64,000 nt of DNA, from assembly GCA_016783135.1 (NCBI GenBank), contig JADHXC010000007.1:1-64000 (forward strand). The letters run 5' to 3'. Position numbers and translations under genes: made by a program. The stretch is from Dehalococcoidales bacterium (GTDB taxonomy: Bacteria; Chloroflexota; Dehalococcoidia; Dehalococcoidales; Fen-1064). Below are positions 21,214 to 28,665 of this stretch, in pieces (position 1 is the first letter of the stretch; every line of letters starts with the position of its first letter). The notes beneath the pieces are model-generated. The model was not told the DNA's origin. It ran no database searches and was given only the letters and a program-made list of their open reading frames with translations.

Positions 21214-22047
21214 CTATTTTGCCTTGAGCTCTGCCAGTACGCTTTCGTCTATGGAGGAGCCGTGCTTCTTCGTGGGAAAAGTGCTGGCGCGCACCTCTTT
21301 GTAATATTCGGTGAGCGCACCGGAGATTATATCAGCCAGCTTGGCATACTGCTTGGCGTGCCGCGGGACGAAGTCCGTGTACGAACCCAGCAGGTCGTTG
21401 ATAACCTGCACCTGACCGCTGCAGCCGGGCCCGGCGCCGATGCCGATGGTGGGGATGCTGATTTTCTCCGTTATCAGGCTTGCCAGTTGGGCCGGGACCG
21501 TCTCCAGTACCACGGCAAATGCACCGGCTTGTTCAAGGGCCCTGGCGTCGTCGAGTATCTTTACCGCGGCTTCCGGGGTTTTCCCCTGGGCCTTGTGCCC
21601 GCCGATCTGGTTGATGGACTGTGGCGTAAGCCCGATGTGTCCCATCACCGGGATACCGCACTCCACGATGCGCTTCACCTTATCGGCGACGGTAACTCCA
21701 CCCTCCAGCTTGACTGCCTGGGCACCTGCCTCCTGTATAAAGCGTGCCGCATTCCGCATTGCGTCCTCGGTGCTGGTGTGATAGGTCATGAAGGGCATGT
21801 CACCAACCACCAGTGCCTGTTTGGTGCCCCTGACTACCGCCTTGGTGTGGTGCAGCATGATGTCCAGCGTCACCGGGATGGTAGACTCGTAGCCCAGCAC
21901 CACCATGCCAAGACTGTCGCCTACCAGGATAAGTGGTATTCCCACCTGGTCTACAATCTTGGCGGTCGAGTAGTCGTAGGCCGTCACCATGGTGATTATC
22001 TCACCCTTTTCCTTCAGCTCCCTGATGTCATTGATTGTTATGCGCAT
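21214..22047 (-). CDS. panB: 3-methyl-2-oxobutanoate hydroxymethyltransferase
   Basis: 277 residues. Transfers a hydroxymethyl group from methylene-tetrahydrofolate to ketoisovalerate to give ketopantoate. Motifs MVTAYDYSTAKIVDQ, LVGDSLGMVVLGY, HIGLTPQSINQIGG and PTIGIGAGPGCSGQVQV are classic. Start ATG follows AGGAGG. Sits between panD (11-nt gap) and panC. Confidence 0.96.
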   Translation of the reverse strand: MRITINDIRELKEKGEIITMVTAYDYSTAKIVDQVGIPLILVGDSLGMVVLGYESTIPVTLDIMLHHTKAVVRGTKQALVVGDMPFMTYHTSTEDAMRNAARFIQEAGAQAVKLEGGVTVADKVKRIVECGIPVMGHIGLTPQSINQIGGHKAQGKTPEAAVKILDDARALEQAGAFAVVLETVPAQLASLITEKISIPTIGIGAGPGCSGQVQVINDLLGSYTDFVPRHAKQYAKLADIISGALTEYYKEVRASTFPTKKHGSSIDESVLAELKAK

Positions 22048-22058
22048 TGTCCTCCTCC

Positions 22059-22430
22059 TTAGACGGACGCAGTCTCGGCGAGGCGTCCGGCTGATATACT
22101 GACGTTATCAGCATTAACAAAGACCAGCCTGGGCTCGAAGTCCGGGATATCTTCGTCACTGACCTGGCAGTAGGAGAGGATGATAACCAGGTCTCCGATT
22201 GAAACCAGTCTGGCTGCTGCTCCATTAAGGCATATTTCGTCCTCACCACCCTCGATAGCGTAGGTGACCAGGCGAGAGCCGTTATTGATATCCAGCACAT
22301 GGACCTGCTCATATGGCAGGATATCCGCCTCTTGCATGAGCTTGCGGTCAATGGTGATACTGCCTTCGTAGTTGATGTCAGCACCGGTTACCCGGGCCCG
22401 GTGAATCTTGCTCTTAAGCATGAAACGCAT
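22059..22430 (-). CDS. panD: Aspartate 1-decarboxylase precursor
   Basis: 123 residues. Makes beta-alanine from aspartate using a pyruvoyl group produced by self-cleavage. From the ATG at 22430 (AAGGAG about 10 nt upstream) the protein begins like E. coli PanD, and the cleavage site YEGSITID places the future pyruvoyl Ser at residue 24. [19 protein letters not shown] and the conserved [10 protein letters not shown] are intact. A longer in-frame start would overlap the lipoprotein gene and adds unrelated residues. Confidence 0.95.
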
Positions 22431-22488
22431 CAGGCTTATACTCCTTGTGGATAGTGTGAACCGGCCTGGTCTAAACCGGCCAGTCAGG

Positions 22489-22950
22489 CTATTCAGTTCC
22501 CCCCAGGTCCAGCAGATTGCCAAGCACCGTATTTATTGCGAATACCCCCGCATAATCGAGCCATTCTATCGCAATAATCTGCCTGTCCTTGAGAAAGACC
22601 GCGAAGTACATGTTGTCACCAGGGTCCGGCTCGATTACGATGGCCAGGCAGGGGGCATCGGTGTCCCCGGGACTACCACCCTCCTTGGCCTTGAATGTCC
22701 AGTTGCCACTCTCCTGTTTCTCGATAGCCTGCGCTGGATATATCGTCATTCTGTCCTTCAGTGCGTCTGTCATCAACTCCTGGAACTGGTCGAAAGTCTG
22801 ACCAACCTGTGTCAGTTCCTGGAGGTGTTTTATGCTGTCCACCGGTGGACTGGGTGTTCCACCGCATCCTGTCAGCAGCGTTCCGATGATTGACAGTACG
22901 ACCAGGGGAAGTAATGCCCTGTATTTCAATGTTCTATTTGCCTCCTTCAT
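22489..22950 (-). CDS. Small predicted lipoprotein inside the pantothenate operon
   Basis: 153 residues, family not recognised. Signal: basic start, hydrophobic [11 protein letters not shown], lipobox LLTGC, so Cys29 should be lipidated. The mature part predicts a small alpha/beta domain ([19 protein letters not shown] region) with no catalytic motif; the amphipathic helix near [18 protein letters not shown] is suggestive of an interaction surface. Its start overlaps the stop of the upstream DUF2520 gene by 4 nt (ATGA type), so it is translationally coupled to it, and panD follows 59 bp later. An exported lipoprotein in a cytosolic vitamin pathway is unexpected; uptake or sensing of a precursor is only a guess. 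Confidence 0.75.
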
Positions 22951-23834
22951 CCGGTTTTCTGATCTTTTCCCGGAGGATTGTCCGTGAGCAGAGCCAGTAG
23001 CTCTTCAGCCTGTTTATTGTCTATTTTCCCTTTAGCCAGGGCGATAGGAACGGTCTGGCGGCCGAGGTCGCAGTATGTGGGAAGCACGGTGGGAGCCGCT
23101 TTCTCCAGGGCCTCCAGGTGTTTCCTGATAGTACCGGTATCGCCACGGGCAATCGGTCCGGTCAGGCCCTGCGGTATCCCTACGCGGTCGATATTGGCAA
23201 TGGTCCCCCGCAGCAACGGGAGCAGTGCCTGTGTAGCCTCATCCGGTGCTACGTCAAAGGTCTGCCACAGATCGGTAGACAGCTTGACCAGGGTCACCAG
23301 GTAGTTGCAGGCAATAACGGCGGCGGTATGATAGAGCACTTTGGCCCCCGGTTTGAGTTCTATGGGATGTCCGTCCAGGGCATGGGCCAGTTCCTTGAGC
23401 GTGCTCAGCAGGGGTTCCTCAGCCTCGAGGGCAAAGGTGGAACCGGCTATATTGCTGATGGCCTGCTCCACGCTGGCAAAGGTCTGCAAGGGGTGAAAAG
23501 CACCGATGCCGGCACCCTGTTTCCTGGCCGTCTCCAGCGTGTCCACAGAATCAGCACCGCTGCAGTGGACCACGCTCTGGCCGGGATGCCACTCTATTCC
23601 GGCTACCACCGGACCGACGGCGTCGTCGGGCGTGGTGATGAAGATAAGCTCAGCGACATCGGCCACCGCCTGACCGCTCTCAACCGCCTGACAACCGTCC
23701 ACCGCCCGGGCAAGCCTGTTTGTGGAGTCCGGGGTACGGCTGAAGACGGCGACCACGGGATATCGCCTCTCGCTCAATCTTCTTGCCAGCGCCGTGCCCA
23801 CAGTTCCTGCCCCGATGAAACCCAGCTTCAGCAT
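22947..23834 (-). CDS. Rossmann/DUF2520 dehydrogenase, candidate ketopantoate reductase
   Basis: 295 residues from the ATG at 23834 (GGAGGAAGG upstream). The N-terminus is an NAD(P)-binding Rossmann fold (KLGFIGAGTVGTALARRL, VVAVFSRT, IFITTPDDAV), then VHCSGADSVDTL, GAFHPLQTFASV and the helical DUF2520 domain (ALLPLLRGTIANI, GLTGPIARGDTGTI). It is first in an operon with panD, panB and panC, which lacks any panE or ilvC. This makes it a strong candidate for the missing ketopantoate reductase; I recall a PanG-type reductase of similar architecture in other bacteria but cannot verify it here. An upstream in-frame start would overlap the leader terminator. Confidence 0.8.
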   Translation of the reverse strand: MLKLGFIGAGTVGTALARRLSERRYPVVAVFSRTPDSTNRLARAVDGCQAVESGQAVADVAELIFITTPDDAVGPVVAGIEWHPGQSVVHCSGADSVDTLETARKQGAGIGAFHPLQTFASVEQAISNIAGSTFALEAEEPLLSTLKELAHALDGHPIELKPGAKVLYHTAAVIACNYLVTLVKLSTDLWQTFDVAPDEATQALLPLLRGTIANIDRVGIPQGLTGPIARGDTGTIRKHLEALEKAAPTVLPTYCDLGRQTVPIALAKGKIDNKQAEELLALLTDNPPGKDQKTG

Positions 23835-24015
23835 GGCTGCCTTCCTCCAGTCCATCCCCAGTAAAAATGCCCTCTCCGGTACAACCAGAGAAGGCATTCG
23901 TGTATCACCGATATTCCTGCCGTCTCGGTCGTATCCGATCCAAGCGACCAGCTACATTGCCGGGGGTTCTTATTGGTGGACTCACCGCAATGTCGATGGT
24001 CCGCATCCCCCCTGC
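23835..24015 (-). ncRNA. Structured 5' leader of the pantothenate operon, candidate riboswitch (pan-motif position)
   Basis: About 180 nt lie between the promoter and the first operon gene. The RNA can form an ACATTGC/GCAATGT stem (23987-23993 with 23954-23960), a GGTG/CACC hairpin inside it, a GGTCG/CGACC stem, and ends with a strong intrinsic terminator only 29 nt before the start codon. That is the layout of a transcription-attenuating riboswitch. The pan RNA motif is known to precede panB/panC/panD operons in Chloroflexi and Firmicutes; whether this leader matches its consensus needs a covariance search. Confidence 0.6.
23863..23897 (-). terminator. Intrinsic terminator in the pantothenate leader
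   Basis: Reverse-strand RNA forms a 13-bp stem (AUGCCUUCUCUGG with CCGGAGAGGGCAU, two G-U pairs) with a UUGUA loop followed by UUUUU. It sits inside the 5' leader, between promoter and gene, so it must be conditional if the operon is expressed. Confidence 0.85.
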
Positions 24016-24021
24016 AACTGG

Positions 24022-24050
24022 ATTCTAACAAGGGGGTAGTGTTTTGTCAA
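24022..24050 (-). promoter_or_regulatory. Sigma-70 promoter of the pantothenate operon
   Basis: On the reverse strand TTGACA (24050-24045), a 17-bp spacer and TAGAAT (24027-24022). Near-consensus; transcription would begin near 24015 and run through the leader and terminator into the DUF2520 gene. Confidence 0.75.
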
Positions 24051-24168
24051 TAGATTTATGGTTGTAGTTGTCAAGGAACGTTCTCAGAGTAAGTTCTCCA
24101 GCCTTAGACCGGATGAATAAACCGTGTGCCATTTGTTTCCGTACAGAGTATTATTAGCAATATTCCAG

Positions 24169-24177
24169 TGGTATAAT
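24169..24177 (+). promoter_or_regulatory. Extended -10 promoter for the AmmeMemoRadiSam operon
   Basis: TGGTATAAT is a perfect extended -10 (TG-n-TATAAT) with no good -35, 28 nt before the chosen ATG at 24206. It is divergent from the pantothenate promoter. Confidence 0.55.
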
Positions 24178-24205
24178 TGTGCCGAGTCCGTGGCCGGAGG
24201 TAGGA

Positions 24206-25246
24206 ATGCCAGAGGCGATGCTCTTTGAGAAGCTTTCCGGTTCCAGGGTCAGGTGCGGTACCTGTCAGTGGCGCTGCAGCATCAACCCGGGACGGTTCGG
24301 GGTCTGCCGGATGTACCAGAACGTGGGCGGTACCCTGCAGAATCTCAGCTACGCCCGGGTCTCTTCCATGACTGCCGACCCGATTGAAAAAAAACCGCTG
24401 TTTCATTTCTTCCCTGGCACCCAGGCTTTCTCGGTCGGTGGCTGGGGCTGCAATTTCCAGTGTCGGGGATGTCAGAACTGGCAGATTTCTTCCGTCCGTA
24501 ACCATAACCAGGCGTACGGCGCGCGGGAAATCCTGCCGGAGCAACTTATAGAGTTAACCGAACGTAATAACTGCCAGGGTATTGCCTGGACTTACAACGA
24601 GCCGGGTATCTGGTTCGAGTACACGCTTGACGGGGCCCGGCTGGCTAAAGAGAAGGGCCTGTATACGGTCTACGTGACCAATGGCTATCTTACTCCTGAA
24701 GCGCTGGACATCATCGGGCCGTATCTGGACGCCTGGCGAGTGGATGTCAAGGGCTTTACCGATTCTGTCTACCGCCGACTGGCCAGGATAACTCACTGGC
24801 GGGAGATACTGGAGGTCGCCGAACGTGCTAAAACAAAGTGGAACATGCACGTTGAGGTTATTACCAATATCATACCCACGTTGAATGACGATGATGAGCA
24901 GCTTCAGGGTATCGCCCGGTGGATACATGATGGCCTGGGTGAACTGACGCCGTGGCATGTGACCAGATTCCATCCCCAGTACCAGATGACAGAACTTCCG
25001 TCGACTCCAATCGCAACCCTGGAACATGCCTACGATATCGGGCGGGCTGCCGGTCTACGGTTCGTCTACCTGGGAAACGTTCCCGGCCACGAGAGTGAGA
25101 GCACGGTCTGCTATTCCTGCGGGAAGCTGGTTGTGGCCAGGTCCGGTTACCAGACCAACGTGGTGGCACTGAACGGTTCGAAGTGTGGATACTGCGGGGC
25201 GGAGCTTGGCTTCAGGATGCCCGGTGGAGGTGGACATAATGATTAG
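24206..25246 (+). CDS. amrS: AmmeMemoRadiSam system radical SAM enzyme
   Basis: 346 residues from the ATG at 24206, which has GGAGG 6 nt upstream. Radical SAM CxxxCxxC motif is present as GWGCNFQCRGCQNWQ (Cys82, 86, 89), preceded by an N-terminal cysteine set (CGTCQWRC, GVCRMY) and followed by a C-terminal zinc-ribbon-like pair (CYSCGK, CGYCG). This is the PflA-like radical SAM member of the widely conserved AMMECR1/Memo/radical-SAM trio, whose substrate is unknown to me. It overlaps the Memo-AMMECR1 gene by 8 nt, so the two are coupled. Confidence 0.9.
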   Translation: MPEAMLFEKLSGSRVRCGTCQWRCSINPGRFGVCRMYQNVGGTLQNLSYARVSSMTADPIEKKPLFHFFPGTQAFSVGGWGCNFQCRGCQNWQISSVRNHNQAYGAREILPEQLIELTERNNCQGIAWTYNEPGIWFEYTLDGARLAKEKGLYTVYVTNGYLTPEALDIIGPYLDAWRVDVKGFTDSVYRRLARITHWREILEVAERAKTKWNMHVEVITNIIPTLNDDDEQLQGIARWIHDGLGELTPWHVTRFHPQYQMTELPSTPIATLEHAYDIGRAAGLRFVYLGNVPGHESESTVCYSCGKLVVARSGYQTNVVALNGSKCGYCGAELGFRMPGGGGHND

Positions 25247-26552
25247 GCAATCGGTGGTCGCGGGACGGTTCTATCCCGGCAGTCCTGACCGGCTGCGGAA
25301 GATTATCGGCAGTATGGTCGATGAGAGGGCTGAAAAAGAAGACGTTATCGGCGTGGTGATGCCTCATGCCGGCTACGAGTACTCCGGGCCGGTAGCCGGG
25401 GCAACTATATCACGGGTCAGGTTCAAAGATACTTTTGTCATCATGGGACCGAGCCACACCGGGATGGGGGAGCCTTTCAGCATCATGACGGAGGGGACAT
25501 GGAGAACTCCGCTGGGGGATGTCGAACTCGACGCCGAGTTGGGTAAGAAGGTCCTGGGCCTGTCCGGCATCTTGAAAGAGGACTATCTGGCCCACTTGCA
25601 GGAGCATGCCGTTGAAGTACAGTTGCCTTTCCTTCAGTATTTCAAGCCGGATGTCAGGATTGTGCCCATTATCCTTGCTTCCGCTGATGTTTCCACGTAC
25701 CGGGAAATCGGGCAGGCCCTGGCCGCGGCAGTCAAAGAGCTGGAAAGGGACGTAGTCATCATTGCCTCCGGTGACATGACCCACTACGAACCGCAGCAAT
25801 CGGCAGAGCGGAAGGACAGAGAGGGGATAGCGGCGATACTGGAGCTGGATGAAGAGAAGCTGTTGAAGCGGGTGCGGGAACTGAGTATATCAATGTGTGC
25901 TTACGCACCGGCGGCTACTATGATTGCCGCTGCTAAAGGACTGGGTGCCGGAGACACGGAACTGGTAAGATACCAGACCAGCGGCGACACCACCAGGGAC
26001 TACTCGGCCGTCGTCGGATACGCCGGGATAATTATCAGGGCCGGCGGAATGTCGCCACTGGTGCGACTGGCCAAACAGACCGTCGAGATGTATGTCCGTG
26101 AAGGAAAGAGGCTCCGACCGGAGAACTTGGTGCAGGAGATGGAACAGAAGGCCGGTGTCTTTGTGTCCCTTCACATGCATCACGAGCTGCGTGGCTGTAT
26201 CGGGACATTTGAACCGGCAGAGAACAATATCGCCGAAGAGATTGTCACCAACGCCATCAGTTCCGCCACCAGGGACCCGCGCTTCCTGCCGGTCGGCGCA
26301 GATGAACTCGACAGTCTTGAGTACAGTGTTGATGTTCTGACGACACCGGAACGTATTGACAGGACCGACTGTCTTGACCCGAAACGTTACGGGGTTATTG
26401 TTGAGGCCGGTTGGCGACGGGGCCTGCTGCTACCCGACCTTGAAGGAGTGGATAGCGTAAAGAGGCAGATTGAGATTTGCCGCATGAAGGCGGGCATAGG
26501 CCCCGAAGAAGCGGTCAATCTGTACCGTTTTGAGGTGAAGAGGCACAAATAA
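25239..26552 (+). CDS. amrB: AmmeMemoRadiSam proteins B and A fused (Memo-like plus AMMECR1)
   Basis: 437 residues. About 1-265 is a Memo-like domain (extradiol-dioxygenase fold) keeping the pocket residues of human MEMO1: His43 (PHAGYEYSG), His73 (GPSHTG), Asp179 and His182 (GDMTHY) and Cys220. About 272-437 is an AMMECR1 domain with the invariant LRGCIG (317-322). Start ATG at 25239 follows GGTGGAGG; a longer in-frame reading lies inside amrS. Fusion of the two partners confirms that they act together with the radical SAM enzyme. Metal (iron or copper) binding is reported for human MEMO1; here it is inference. Confidence 0.9.
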   Translation: MIRQSVVAGRFYPGSPDRLRKIIGSMVDERAEKEDVIGVVMPHAGYEYSGPVAGATISRVRFKDTFVIMGPSHTGMGEPFSIMTEGTWRTPLGDVELDAELGKKVLGLSGILKEDYLAHLQEHAVEVQLPFLQYFKPDVRIVPIILASADVSTYREIGQALAAAVKELERDVVIIASGDMTHYEPQQSAERKDREGIAAILELDEEKLLKRVRELSISMCAYAPAATMIAAAKGLGAGDTELVRYQTSGDTTRDYSAVVGYAGIIIRAGGMSPLVRLAKQTVEMYVREGKRLRPENLVQEMEQKAGVFVSLHMHHELRGCIGTFEPAENNIAEEIVTNAISSATRDPRFLPVGADELDSLEYSVDVLTTPERIDRTDCLDPKRYGVIVEAGWRRGLLLPDLEGVDSVKRQIEICRMKAGIGPEEAVNLYRFEVKRHK

Positions 26553-26601
26553 TCCCGGTTTACTCAGCAAACCGAGTTCGGAAACAGACAAGGAGCTTGA
26601 C

Positions 26602-27171
26602 ATGATAAGAGACCTGGTAATGAAGAACCGGAGCTACAGGCGTTTCTATCAGGATGTTCCCATTGAGCAGGAGACACTGAAGGAGTTGGTTGACCTGGCG
26701 AGGTGCTCTGCGTCAGGGGCTAACCGGCAGACCCTGAAATATGTCCTTTCCTGCACTCCGGAGAGAAATGCCCGGGTGTTCTCCACCCTCGGTTGGGCGG
26801 GAGCCCTGCCGGACTGGCCCGGCCCGCCGGAGGGGGAGCGGCCCTCAGGCTACATCATCATCCTGGGAGACACGGAGATAAGTAAGAACGCCGGTGTCGA
26901 CCACGGTATAGCCGCGCAGAGTATTCTCCTCGGTGCCGTGGACAAAGGTCTGGGCGGGTGTATGCTGGCTTCGGTAAAACGTGACGAACTGCGTAAGCTT
27001 CTGGACATCCCGGAGCAGTACGAGATTCTCCTCGTGCTGGCTCTGGGCAAACCGAAGGAGCGTGTAGTAATGGAGACCCTGGAGCCGGGCGGCGATGTCC
27101 GCTACTGGCGCGATGAGGACCAGGTGCACCATGTCCCCAAGCGGCGACTTGAGGATATAATTGTGGGCTAA
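26602..27171 (+). CDS. Nitroreductase-family flavoprotein
   Basis: 189 residues. FMN-dependent reductase fold: RNRSYRRF-like N-terminus (MKNRSYRRFYQDVPI), ASGANRQTLKYV, DHGIAAQSILLGAVDKGLGG and LVLALGKPKE all match the family. The substrate may be a quinone, nitro compound or enone and cannot be read. ATG preceded by AAGGAG, 49 bp after the AMMECR1 fusion, so possibly co-transcribed with it. Confidence 0.88.
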   Translation: MIRDLVMKNRSYRRFYQDVPIEQETLKELVDLARCSASGANRQTLKYVLSCTPERNARVFSTLGWAGALPDWPGPPEGERPSGYIIILGDTEISKNAGVDHGIAAQSILLGAVDKGLGGCMLASVKRDELRKLLDIPEQYEILLVLALGKPKERVVMETLEPGGDVRYWRDEDQVHHVPKRRLEDIIVG

Positions 27172-27213
27172 CGTTTTCAGAACGCTGCGCCGGATGGTGG
27201 GTATACTGAGACC

Positions 27214-28665
27214 ATGAGAAACGTATCAAAGAATGTGTTCCTGAATGCGCTGACCTGTCCCTTTCTGGGGTGGATGCTGCGTACCGGAGAGGCACCGAAG
27301 CCGCGCCTGACTCTGGGAGACAGGTTCCGGTTTGAGCAGGGCCGGGAGATAGGCCGGAGGGCCAGGATGTTATATCCGGATGGCTTGATGGTAGCGGACG
27401 TGAACCTGTCTTCTGCTGCCAGGAAGACTACCGACGCTCTCCACTCCCCGGTTCCAGCCATTTTTGAGGGTGCTTTCATGAAGGACGGCTTTGTCACCAG
27501 GGCAGATGTACTTGAACAGAAAGCCGAAGGCTGGCACCTTATCGAGGTAAAGTCTGGCACAAATAACAGGGCAGAGTATATTGACGACATGGCACATACC
27601 TACATGGTGGCGGATTCCTGTGGGCTGAAAATAGGCGGGGTATCCTTACTTTTGGTGTCCCGTGATTTCCGCCTGGGAATGGCGGATGATGCACTCTTCG
27701 CGCGAATCGACCACACTGACGAAGTCCTGGCACGCGTTGAGGAGCTTGAAATCATCCGGCGGGAAATCGAGGAGATAACCAGGGCAGAGGAAAAACCACA
27801 ACCGCAACTCATCATGGAATGTCGTCACTGTGACCTCTTCCGGAGCTGTGTGGGCAAAGGGATAAAGAACCATATCTTCGACCTTCCGAGGCTGAGTCAG
27901 GCCAGGTTTGGCGAATTGGTGGCGCATGGTATTGTACGTATCGAGGACATCCCCGACGGGTTTGACCTGACGGAGAACCAGGCCCGTGTTAAGGACTGCG
28001 TTCAGTGTGGCGAGTCGTACGTTGGTGAAGAGTTAAGAACGGAGTTGGCGACCATCGAGTGGCCGGCGTACTACCTGGACTTTGAAACAATGATGACGGC
28101 GATACCGCTGTATCCCGATATTGCCCCGTACACTCAGCTCCCAACACAATACTCTGTACACGTGTGTTCTGATGTCGGCAGGGTTATTGAGCACCGTGAG
28201 TACCTGGCGGACCCTGCCGGAGACTGCCGCCGGGAGCTTGCTGAATGTCTACTCCGCGACCTGGGGGAGCAGGGCAGCATCATCGCCTATTCCAGCTTTG
28301 AGAATGGGGTCATTAACGGCCTGGCGCAGCTGTTCCCTGACCTGTCGGATGCATTGTGTGCCCTGGGAGAGCGCATCGTGGACCTGGAGGCCATAATCAG
28401 GCGGAACTACTACCACCCCGAATTTCACGGTAGCACCTCGATAAAGGCGACCTTGCCGGCACTTGTTTCGGGAATGTCGTATAAGGGCATGGAAATCGGT
28501 GAGGGTGATTCCGCATCGGCAGCTTTTGCTTACCTGGCTATGGGCACCTACTGGAAGCCGGATGAGGTTGAAACGGTCAAGCAGAATCTGCTTAAATACT
28601 GCAAACAGGATACCCTCGCCATGGTGAAGCTCCACGAGAAGCTGACGGACGTGGTGAAGCCCTGA
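27214..28665 (+). CDS. TM0106-type RecB/Cas4-like nuclease fused to a DEDD exonuclease-like domain (DUF2779)
   Basis: 483 residues. The N-terminal domain has a PD-(D/E)xK core, Asp98 and Glu111-x-Lys113 (RADVLEQK, LIEVKSG), and four cysteines (Cys15 and CRHCDLFRSC at 203-212) placed as in Fe-S nucleases such as Cas4. The C-terminal half starts YYLDFETMM (DFE at 289-291), an RNase H-like DEDD exonuclease start, with HSTSIKATLPAL-type motifs later. So two potential nuclease centres lie on one chain. There are no cas genes nearby. A DNA repair or defence role is inference. Confidence 0.82.
   Translation: MRNVSKNVFLNALTCPFLGWMLRTGEAPKPRLTLGDRFRFEQGREIGRRARMLYPDGLMVADVNLSSAARKTTDALHSPVPAIFEGAFMKDGFVTRADVLEQKAEGWHLIEVKSGTNNRAEYIDDMAHTYMVADSCGLKIGGVSLLLVSRDFRLGMADDALFARIDHTDEVLARVEELEIIRREIEEITRAEEKPQPQLIMECRHCDLFRSCVGKGIKNHIFDLPRLSQARFGELVAHGIVRIEDIPDGFDLTENQARVKDCVQCGESYVGEELRTELATIEWPAYYLDFETMMTAIPLYPDIAPYTQLPTQYSVHVCSDVGRVIEHREYLADPAGDCRRELAECLLRDLGEQGSIIAYSSFENGVINGLAQLFPDLSDALCALGERIVDLEAIIRRNYYHPEFHGSTSIKATLPALVSGMSYKGMEIGEGDSASAAFAYLAMGTYWKPDEVETVKQNLLKYCKQDTLAMVKLHEKLTDVVKP

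Follow-up and report, generated by a model that had tools for sequence, protein, structure and literature searches.

A diverged pan RNA in front of a pantothenate operon, with a predicted antiterminator that overlaps its second hairpin

In the pyr attenuators a hairpin bound by PyrR acts as an anti-antiterminator. Its 3' arm otherwise pairs with the 5' arm of the terminator, and the outcome is feedback on biosynthesis. The TPP and SAM-I riboswitches with terminator platforms also depend on leader folds that compete, antiterminator against terminator, in front of vitamin and cofactor genes. The pan motif (Rfam RF01749) is a pair of hairpins in tandem that lies ahead of panB, panC or panD operons, and two bulged As are conserved in each hairpin (Weinberg et al. 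2010, PMC2864571). RNA-seq in Paenibacillus riograndensis places a pan-bearing 5' UTR ahead of panB-panC-panD (PMC5670726). The main text of the pan motif paper describes no expression platform (PMC2864571); the antiterminator overlap described below is a proposal of the present analysis. The literature searched reports no pan effector or mechanism past the 2010 description. CoA is a major cofactor, and a 2022 review names it as one without a known riboswitch (PMC9971707).

We argue that the leader of a pantothenate operon in a Dehalococcoidales genome is a pan-family RNA that controls its operon by transcription attenuation, with the second pan hairpin, P2, as the anti-antiterminator. We give this reading a probability of roughly three in four. 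Family membership, the structure of the two hairpins P1 and P2, the position of the promoter and a conserved, mutually exclusive pairing all come from sequence analysis. From these we infer the switch itself, its polarity and its effector. The window is the whole stretch of DNA analysed, 64,000 nucleotides long, and its relevant features are collected in Table 1.

Table 1. Features of the leader and the operon behind it, in window positions
Feature	Start	End	Strand	Basis
Promoter: TTGACA (24050-24045), 17-nt spacer, TAGAAT (24027-24022)	24022	24050	-	sequence, promoter scan
Pan hairpin P1, GGACCAUCGACAUUGCGGUGAGUCC	23978	24002	-	Rfam and R2 matches, covariation
Pan hairpin P2, GUCGCUUGGAUCGGAUACGACCGAGACGGC	23919	23948	-	Rfam, R2, alignment; RNAalifold gives the identical helix
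Predicted antiterminator strand 1, P2 3' arm, GACCGAGACGGCA	23918	23930	-	duplex with 23883-23896
Predicted antiterminator strand 2, terminator 5' arm, UGCCUUCUCUGGUU	23883	23896	-	conservation, pairing with P2 3' arm
Intrinsic terminator hairpin and U5 run (23867-23863)	23863	23897	-	sequence, folding
Shine-Dalgarno-like GGAGG ahead of the first gene	23844	23848	-	sequence
First gene, Rossmann/DUF2520 oxidoreductase, alternative ketopantoate reductase type	22947	23834	-	PF10728, E 2.1e-35
Lipoprotein-like ORF, 153 aa, between the DUF2520 gene and panD	22489	22950	-	ORF
panD (start inferred)	22059	22430	-	PF02261, E 6.2e-46
panB	21214	22047	-	PF02548, E 2.1e-115
panC (true start probably 21087)	20239	21183	-	PF02569, E 1.8e-106

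The leader and its membership in the pan family

A first-pass annotation made from the letters alone had described a near-consensus promoter, about 180 nt of foldable leader and a terminator just before the first gene. The promoter is there, with 11 of 12 consensus matches and a TG preceding the -10, and it is the best promoter-like site across 22000-28000 (24050-24022, minus strand). Its position would put the transcription start at about 24015, which makes the leader about 182 nt long up to the ATG at 23834. The leader folds at -75.8 kcal/mol; dinucleotide shuffles have a mean of -57.3 (sd 3.9), which gives z -4.8, and none of 200 shuffles folds equally low. The terminator reads AUGCCUUCUCUGGU-UGU-ACCGGAGAGGGCAU followed by the U5 run. 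The hairpin and its five Us stand as annotated, while the stem of 13 bp becomes 14 pairs in RNAfold (-22.1 kcal/mol) and the distance of 29 nt to the gene becomes 28 nt from the end of the U run to the ATG. With these two counts adjusted, the sequence observations of that annotation are all confirmed. A simple terminator scan missed the hairpin at 23897-23863, probably because its stem runs on into the U run.

The annotation had also asked whether transcription might start downstream of the terminator. To the extent that sequence can tell, the promoter of related leaders lies 5' of the element and not 3' of the terminator. Among 161 of them the best promoter directly 5' of P1 scores at least 10 in 83% (0.8% for shuffles), and a strong promoter 3' of P2 is found in 0%. 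The end of the -10 lies a median of 10 nt upstream of the 5-bp helix of P1.

Directly downstream of the leader come the DUF2520 gene, the ORF, panD, panB and panC, so the element sits 5' of a panB/panC/panD operon. DUF2520 proteins have been discussed as a stand-in for the ketopantoate reductase PanE (PMC4572677), so this operon may be a complete pantothenate pathway. The 153-aa ORF has no match in Pfam or NCBIfam, and a scan of viral contigs with the first gene gave no relative.

The suggestion that a pan motif precedes this operon is supported by covariance models. The Rfam model matches the leader over its full length at 24001-23916 with 28.2 bits, below the gathering score of 36.2 (E 0.0062 when 421 nt are searched and 0.0082 in the genome run). 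A second model, R2, from which the window's genus was left out and which uses RNAalifold's own structure, gives 65.0 bits and E 1.3e-14, and this is its sole match in the 64 kb. R2 also matches 8 of 14 tested pan loci of the Bacillales (the order of Shouchella clausii) and the Desulfuromonadia (the class of a Desulfuromonadaceae genome); most of these loci exceed the Rfam cut-off. DNA similarity finds homologous leaders in 46 of 61 relatives. The window copy has the tandem hairpins with bulged As and the pan-operon location in common with RF01749, and differs in its sub-cut-off score, which comes mainly from a P1 that has diverged to an inner helix of 1 bp and a loop of 3 nt. Taken together, these models make the leader in all likelihood a genuine, diverged pan RNA in which P1 appears to have drifted. 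A separate model of the clade has matches in 229 of the 393 genomes sampled from the class and in 79 of the 400 sampled from the phylum; the Rfam cut-off is exceeded in 10 of 301 phylum genomes. This suggests that the Rfam cut-off overlooks most pan members of the window's clade. A pattern scan of the genome collection for further pan elements returned mostly chance matches in coding DNA and few real ones.

An alignment of 49 elements gives both hairpins a common design. Going inwards, each has an outer helix, then a bulged A in the 3' strand, a helix of 5 bp, a bulged A in the 5' strand and finally a short inner helix. In P1 the 5-bp helix is thus flanked by one bulged A per strand. Pairing holds in 97.8% of cells and two-sided changes occur in 12 of the 21 pairs; none of 500 shuffles reaches either measure. 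The covarying stems that had been proposed for homologous leaders are present, and RNAalifold recovers the identical two-hairpin structure. All nine pairs of P1 have two-sided changes. P2 has them in 3 of 12 pairs, its core being too invariant for more, and this invariance is partly selected for, as the leaders were gathered through the conserved P2 sequence. The bulged As are invariant at columns A9 and A20 and at both P2 positions. The linker between the hairpins varies from 22 to 39 nt. It must be noted that two leaders of one genus in the same order (g3; L027 and L030) have no recognisable P1 and carry a compensatory G-C to U-A change beside the P2 bulged A (UUGUAUCC...GGAACGAG). These are single-hairpin pan variants.

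A pairing between P2 and the terminator

The first-pass annotation presumed the terminator to be conditional. We agree, because a specific predicted antiterminator overlaps P2. The 3' arm of P2 and the 5' arm of the terminator form a duplex of 12 pairs with one bulged U and one C-U mismatch at -16.3 kcal/mol. Among 142 control terminators of the same loci, 3 are equally strong. In the predicted structures this antiterminator and the terminator are mutually exclusive, with P2 as anti-antiterminator. The literature searched, which left most subscription papers and all supplements out of reach, contains no prior description of the overlap, and as far as it shows the overlap is new.

The pairing is not peculiar to the window. 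Pan terminators pair with this P2 3' arm at a mean of -14.5, against -9.4 (sd 3.1) for the 142 other terminators of the same loci. Across 82 representatives the mean is -13.9 with their own partners, -9.4 with shuffled arms and -13.0 (sd 0.19) with permuted partners. Cognate pairing beats permuted partners in 20000 of 20000 permutations, a result that shared ancestry possibly inflates. Relatives keep the terminator 5' arm as GCC[C/U]UCUC(GG), with divergence in the linker and the loop. The core position of this arm that varies most freely is C in 31 cases and U in 43, and the P2 base opposite is unpaired in the antiterminator. Two variable positions flank the core pairing, and within the phylum they show no covariation (43 vs 40.2 expected), so the within-phylum case rests on conserved complementarity.

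One can imagine a scenario where the terminator is unconditional, or where the hairpins ahead of the operon are there by chance. Terminator-like hairpins are common, and a plain scan shows no regional excess of them. However, promoter, pan element and terminator recur jointly before pan genes, P1 covaries, and the 5' arm of the terminator has kept its sequence next to a diverging linker and loop. The R2 match contradicts this scenario as well, and we regard it as very improbable. A generic chance terminator was rejected on covariation, on the cognate-pairing test and on promoter conservation upstream of P1.

Attenuation through P2 would proceed as follows. P1 and P2 would fold once transcribed, both with their two bulged As. 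An effector that reports sufficiency of pantothenate or CoA would hold P1-P2 folded, and P2 would stay closed. With P2 closed the terminator could form and transcription would end before the first gene. Without the effector the P2 3' arm would re-pair with the terminator 5' arm, and this antiterminator would exclude both P2 and the terminator. Polymerase would then read into the DUF2520 gene, panD, panB and panC. The genes are probably off when a sufficiency signal keeps P2 shut.

The layout of other leaders fits this polarity. Some leaders of the window's phylum have no terminator. By eye, the end of P2 lies at the start codon or no more than about 8 nt away in three leaders (L019, L164, L193); in two more (L024, L184) a hairpin with a 5' arm of the same type ends in a Shine-Dalgarno-like stretch with no U run. 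Both layouts are consistent with a closed P2 meaning that the genes are off.

The opposite polarity would have the effector stabilise the antiterminator or open P2, and so turn the operon on. It is compatible with the folding of the growing window transcript, in which the antiterminator is the predicted equilibrium state during part of transcription: P2 is folded until the transcript reaches about 127 nt, the antiterminator takes over at 131-141 nt, and from 143 nt P2 and the terminator are predicted. Against it, the conserved bulged As and P1 are features of the P1-P2 fold, and this fold and the antiterminator cannot coexist. A closed P2 at the start codon, as in some leaders, should block translation, and feedback repression is what one expects of a biosynthetic operon. 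An effector that switches the operon on is therefore improbable. What speaks against the attenuation scheme itself is that, before the terminator 3' arm exists, the antiterminator is favoured at equilibrium in only 25 of 82 leaders, although this is far more often than with swapped terminators (33 of 492). On that count of 25 of 82, equilibrium folding was rejected as a demonstration that the default state is ON.

The attenuation proposed for the window can also be looked for outside its phylum. In the Bacillales the 3' side of P2 with its tail (GACAGAGGGAU) can form a duplex with the 5' arm of the terminator (AUCCUUCUGUC), with up to 11 contiguous bp in the best cases, and the sequence differs from that of the window's phylum. 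The mean is -15.1 against -9.5 for shuffled arms. Swapping arms between the window's phylum and the Bacillales weakens the pairing, from -13.9 and -15.1 to -8.3 and -10.8. The permutation test within the Bacillales is weak, with 584 of 10000 permutations equally good. Complementarity in the Desulfuromonadia is also weak, being significant in 3 of 16 leaders.

Two further observations concern the Bacillales. In L318, L325, L328 and other leaders the tail of P2, GAGGGUCGAAAC, has its complement in GUUUCGUCUCCUC, directly before the start codon and past the terminator; the two may make up an outer helix, or else a layer of translational control. The terminator loop of four leaders (L322, L324, L326, L336) contains a structured insert that is conserved (GAUAAGGUAACCCCUGUCAGCCG-like), and with this insert the initial round of terminator detection failed for them.

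The genes behind pan RNAs and the likely signal

Behind 159 elements of the phylum the first gene is DUF2520 in 90, an S58 peptidase in about 40 and panD in 8, followed by coaX and ECF-transporter ATPases. One genome (G136) has a pan element heading ECF genes, coaX, coaBC and an S58 gene, and another (G019) has one heading ECF genes. PanC is absent from both and from a third pan-bearing genome (G760). G019 also has no PanB or DUF2520, and G136 has no DUF2520. Seven of the genomes sampled from the Bacillales and Desulfuromonadia have no DUF2520 either. In genomes that show no complete de novo pathway, the pan RNA also stands before genes for uptake and CoA assembly.

Since PanB, PanC and DUF2520 are each missing from some pan-bearing genomes, these three obvious protein candidates are disfavoured as the obligate regulator. 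Kinase and CoaBC genes would be repressed together with synthesis and uptake, so the signal is most sensibly CoA or a late intermediate. The wider pan gene set, with import and CoA assembly in genomes that lack PanC, points to CoA status as the signal and narrows it accordingly.

What carries this signal to the RNA is a separate matter, and two alternatives compete. An RNA-binding protein, perhaps dimeric, could sense CoA status and bind both hairpins, much like PyrR on pyr leaders, which would change the effector and nothing else in the scheme. The hairpins are two, simple, and share the same bulged-A pair across a variable linker of 22-39 nt, and one genus does without a recognisable P1. The discoverers of the motif favoured a dimeric protein-binding motif (PMC2864571). 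Against it, no candidate protein emerged from the three that were checked, PanB, PanC and DUF2520, none of which is universal in pan-bearing genomes. We put it at about even odds.

Alternatively, P1-P2 could bind a small molecule with no protein, most plausibly CoA or a late CoA intermediate. Pan RNAs stand ahead of genes for pantothenate synthesis, of the pantothenate kinase gene coaX, of coaBC and of genes for ECF transporters, which is the pattern of end-product feedback, and the P2 core is strongly constrained. However, the antiterminator accounts for part of that constraint, the structure is simple for an aptamer, and the literature searched reports no pan ligand. A direct metabolite riboswitch is a possibility we hold only tentatively. 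We lean slightly towards a protein because the hairpins are simple, alike and loosely spaced.

Several pan loci have unusual neighbours. The S58 peptidase (DmpA/BapA-type) is a frequent first gene (L381, L382, L384 and about 40 loci) and also stands beside ECF, coaX and coaBC genes in genomes that lack PanC. Its role could be to release pantothenate from pantetheine for salvage, or to provide beta-alanine. At L383 and L384, in genomes without PanC, the pan RNA precedes an ECF transporter with a PF12822 S component, a candidate importer of pantothenate or a precursor.

In two genomes (G343 and G057) the main pan operon (L387, L388) has no panB and reads DUF2520-panD-panC. A second pan RNA (L379 at G343:C52, L380 at G057:C8) lies immediately 5' of the gene for a 453-aa aldolase in which a HUMPS (hexulose-6-phosphate-synthase type) part and an RraA-like part are fused. 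No PF02548 protein at all occurs in G057, which is 98% complete, and the sole one in G343 is diverged and without the usual VGDSLG motif. The fusion occurs in 1 of 197 class genomes at E <1e-60. It may be a non-orthologous replacement of PanB, e.g. a formaldehyde-using ketopantoate synthase. Two other genomes carry a pan operon and, additionally, a second pan RNA (L377 at G390:C95, L378 at G472:C16) that precedes a formate-dehydrogenase-like molybdopterin oxidoreductase, then SfsA, endonuclease III-like, HMG-CoA-synthase-like and thiolase-like genes.

Comparison with known attenuators

The proposed pairing gives the pan motif a concrete switch that is testable by compensatory mutations. Direct sensing of CoA, or of a late intermediate on the way to it, would make pan RNAs the missing CoA riboswitch, working as an anti-antiterminator over genes for pantothenate synthesis, pantothenate uptake and CoA assembly. 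We consider this unlikely. The pan leader has the competition between antiterminator and terminator before vitamin or cofactor genes in common with the TPP and SAM-I riboswitches, but it has no multi-helix junction aptamer. In logic it parallels the pyr system, where PyrR holds the anti-antiterminator. The pan leader would work alike without being a member of that system, since the RNA is unrelated and the pan side uses tandem hairpins.
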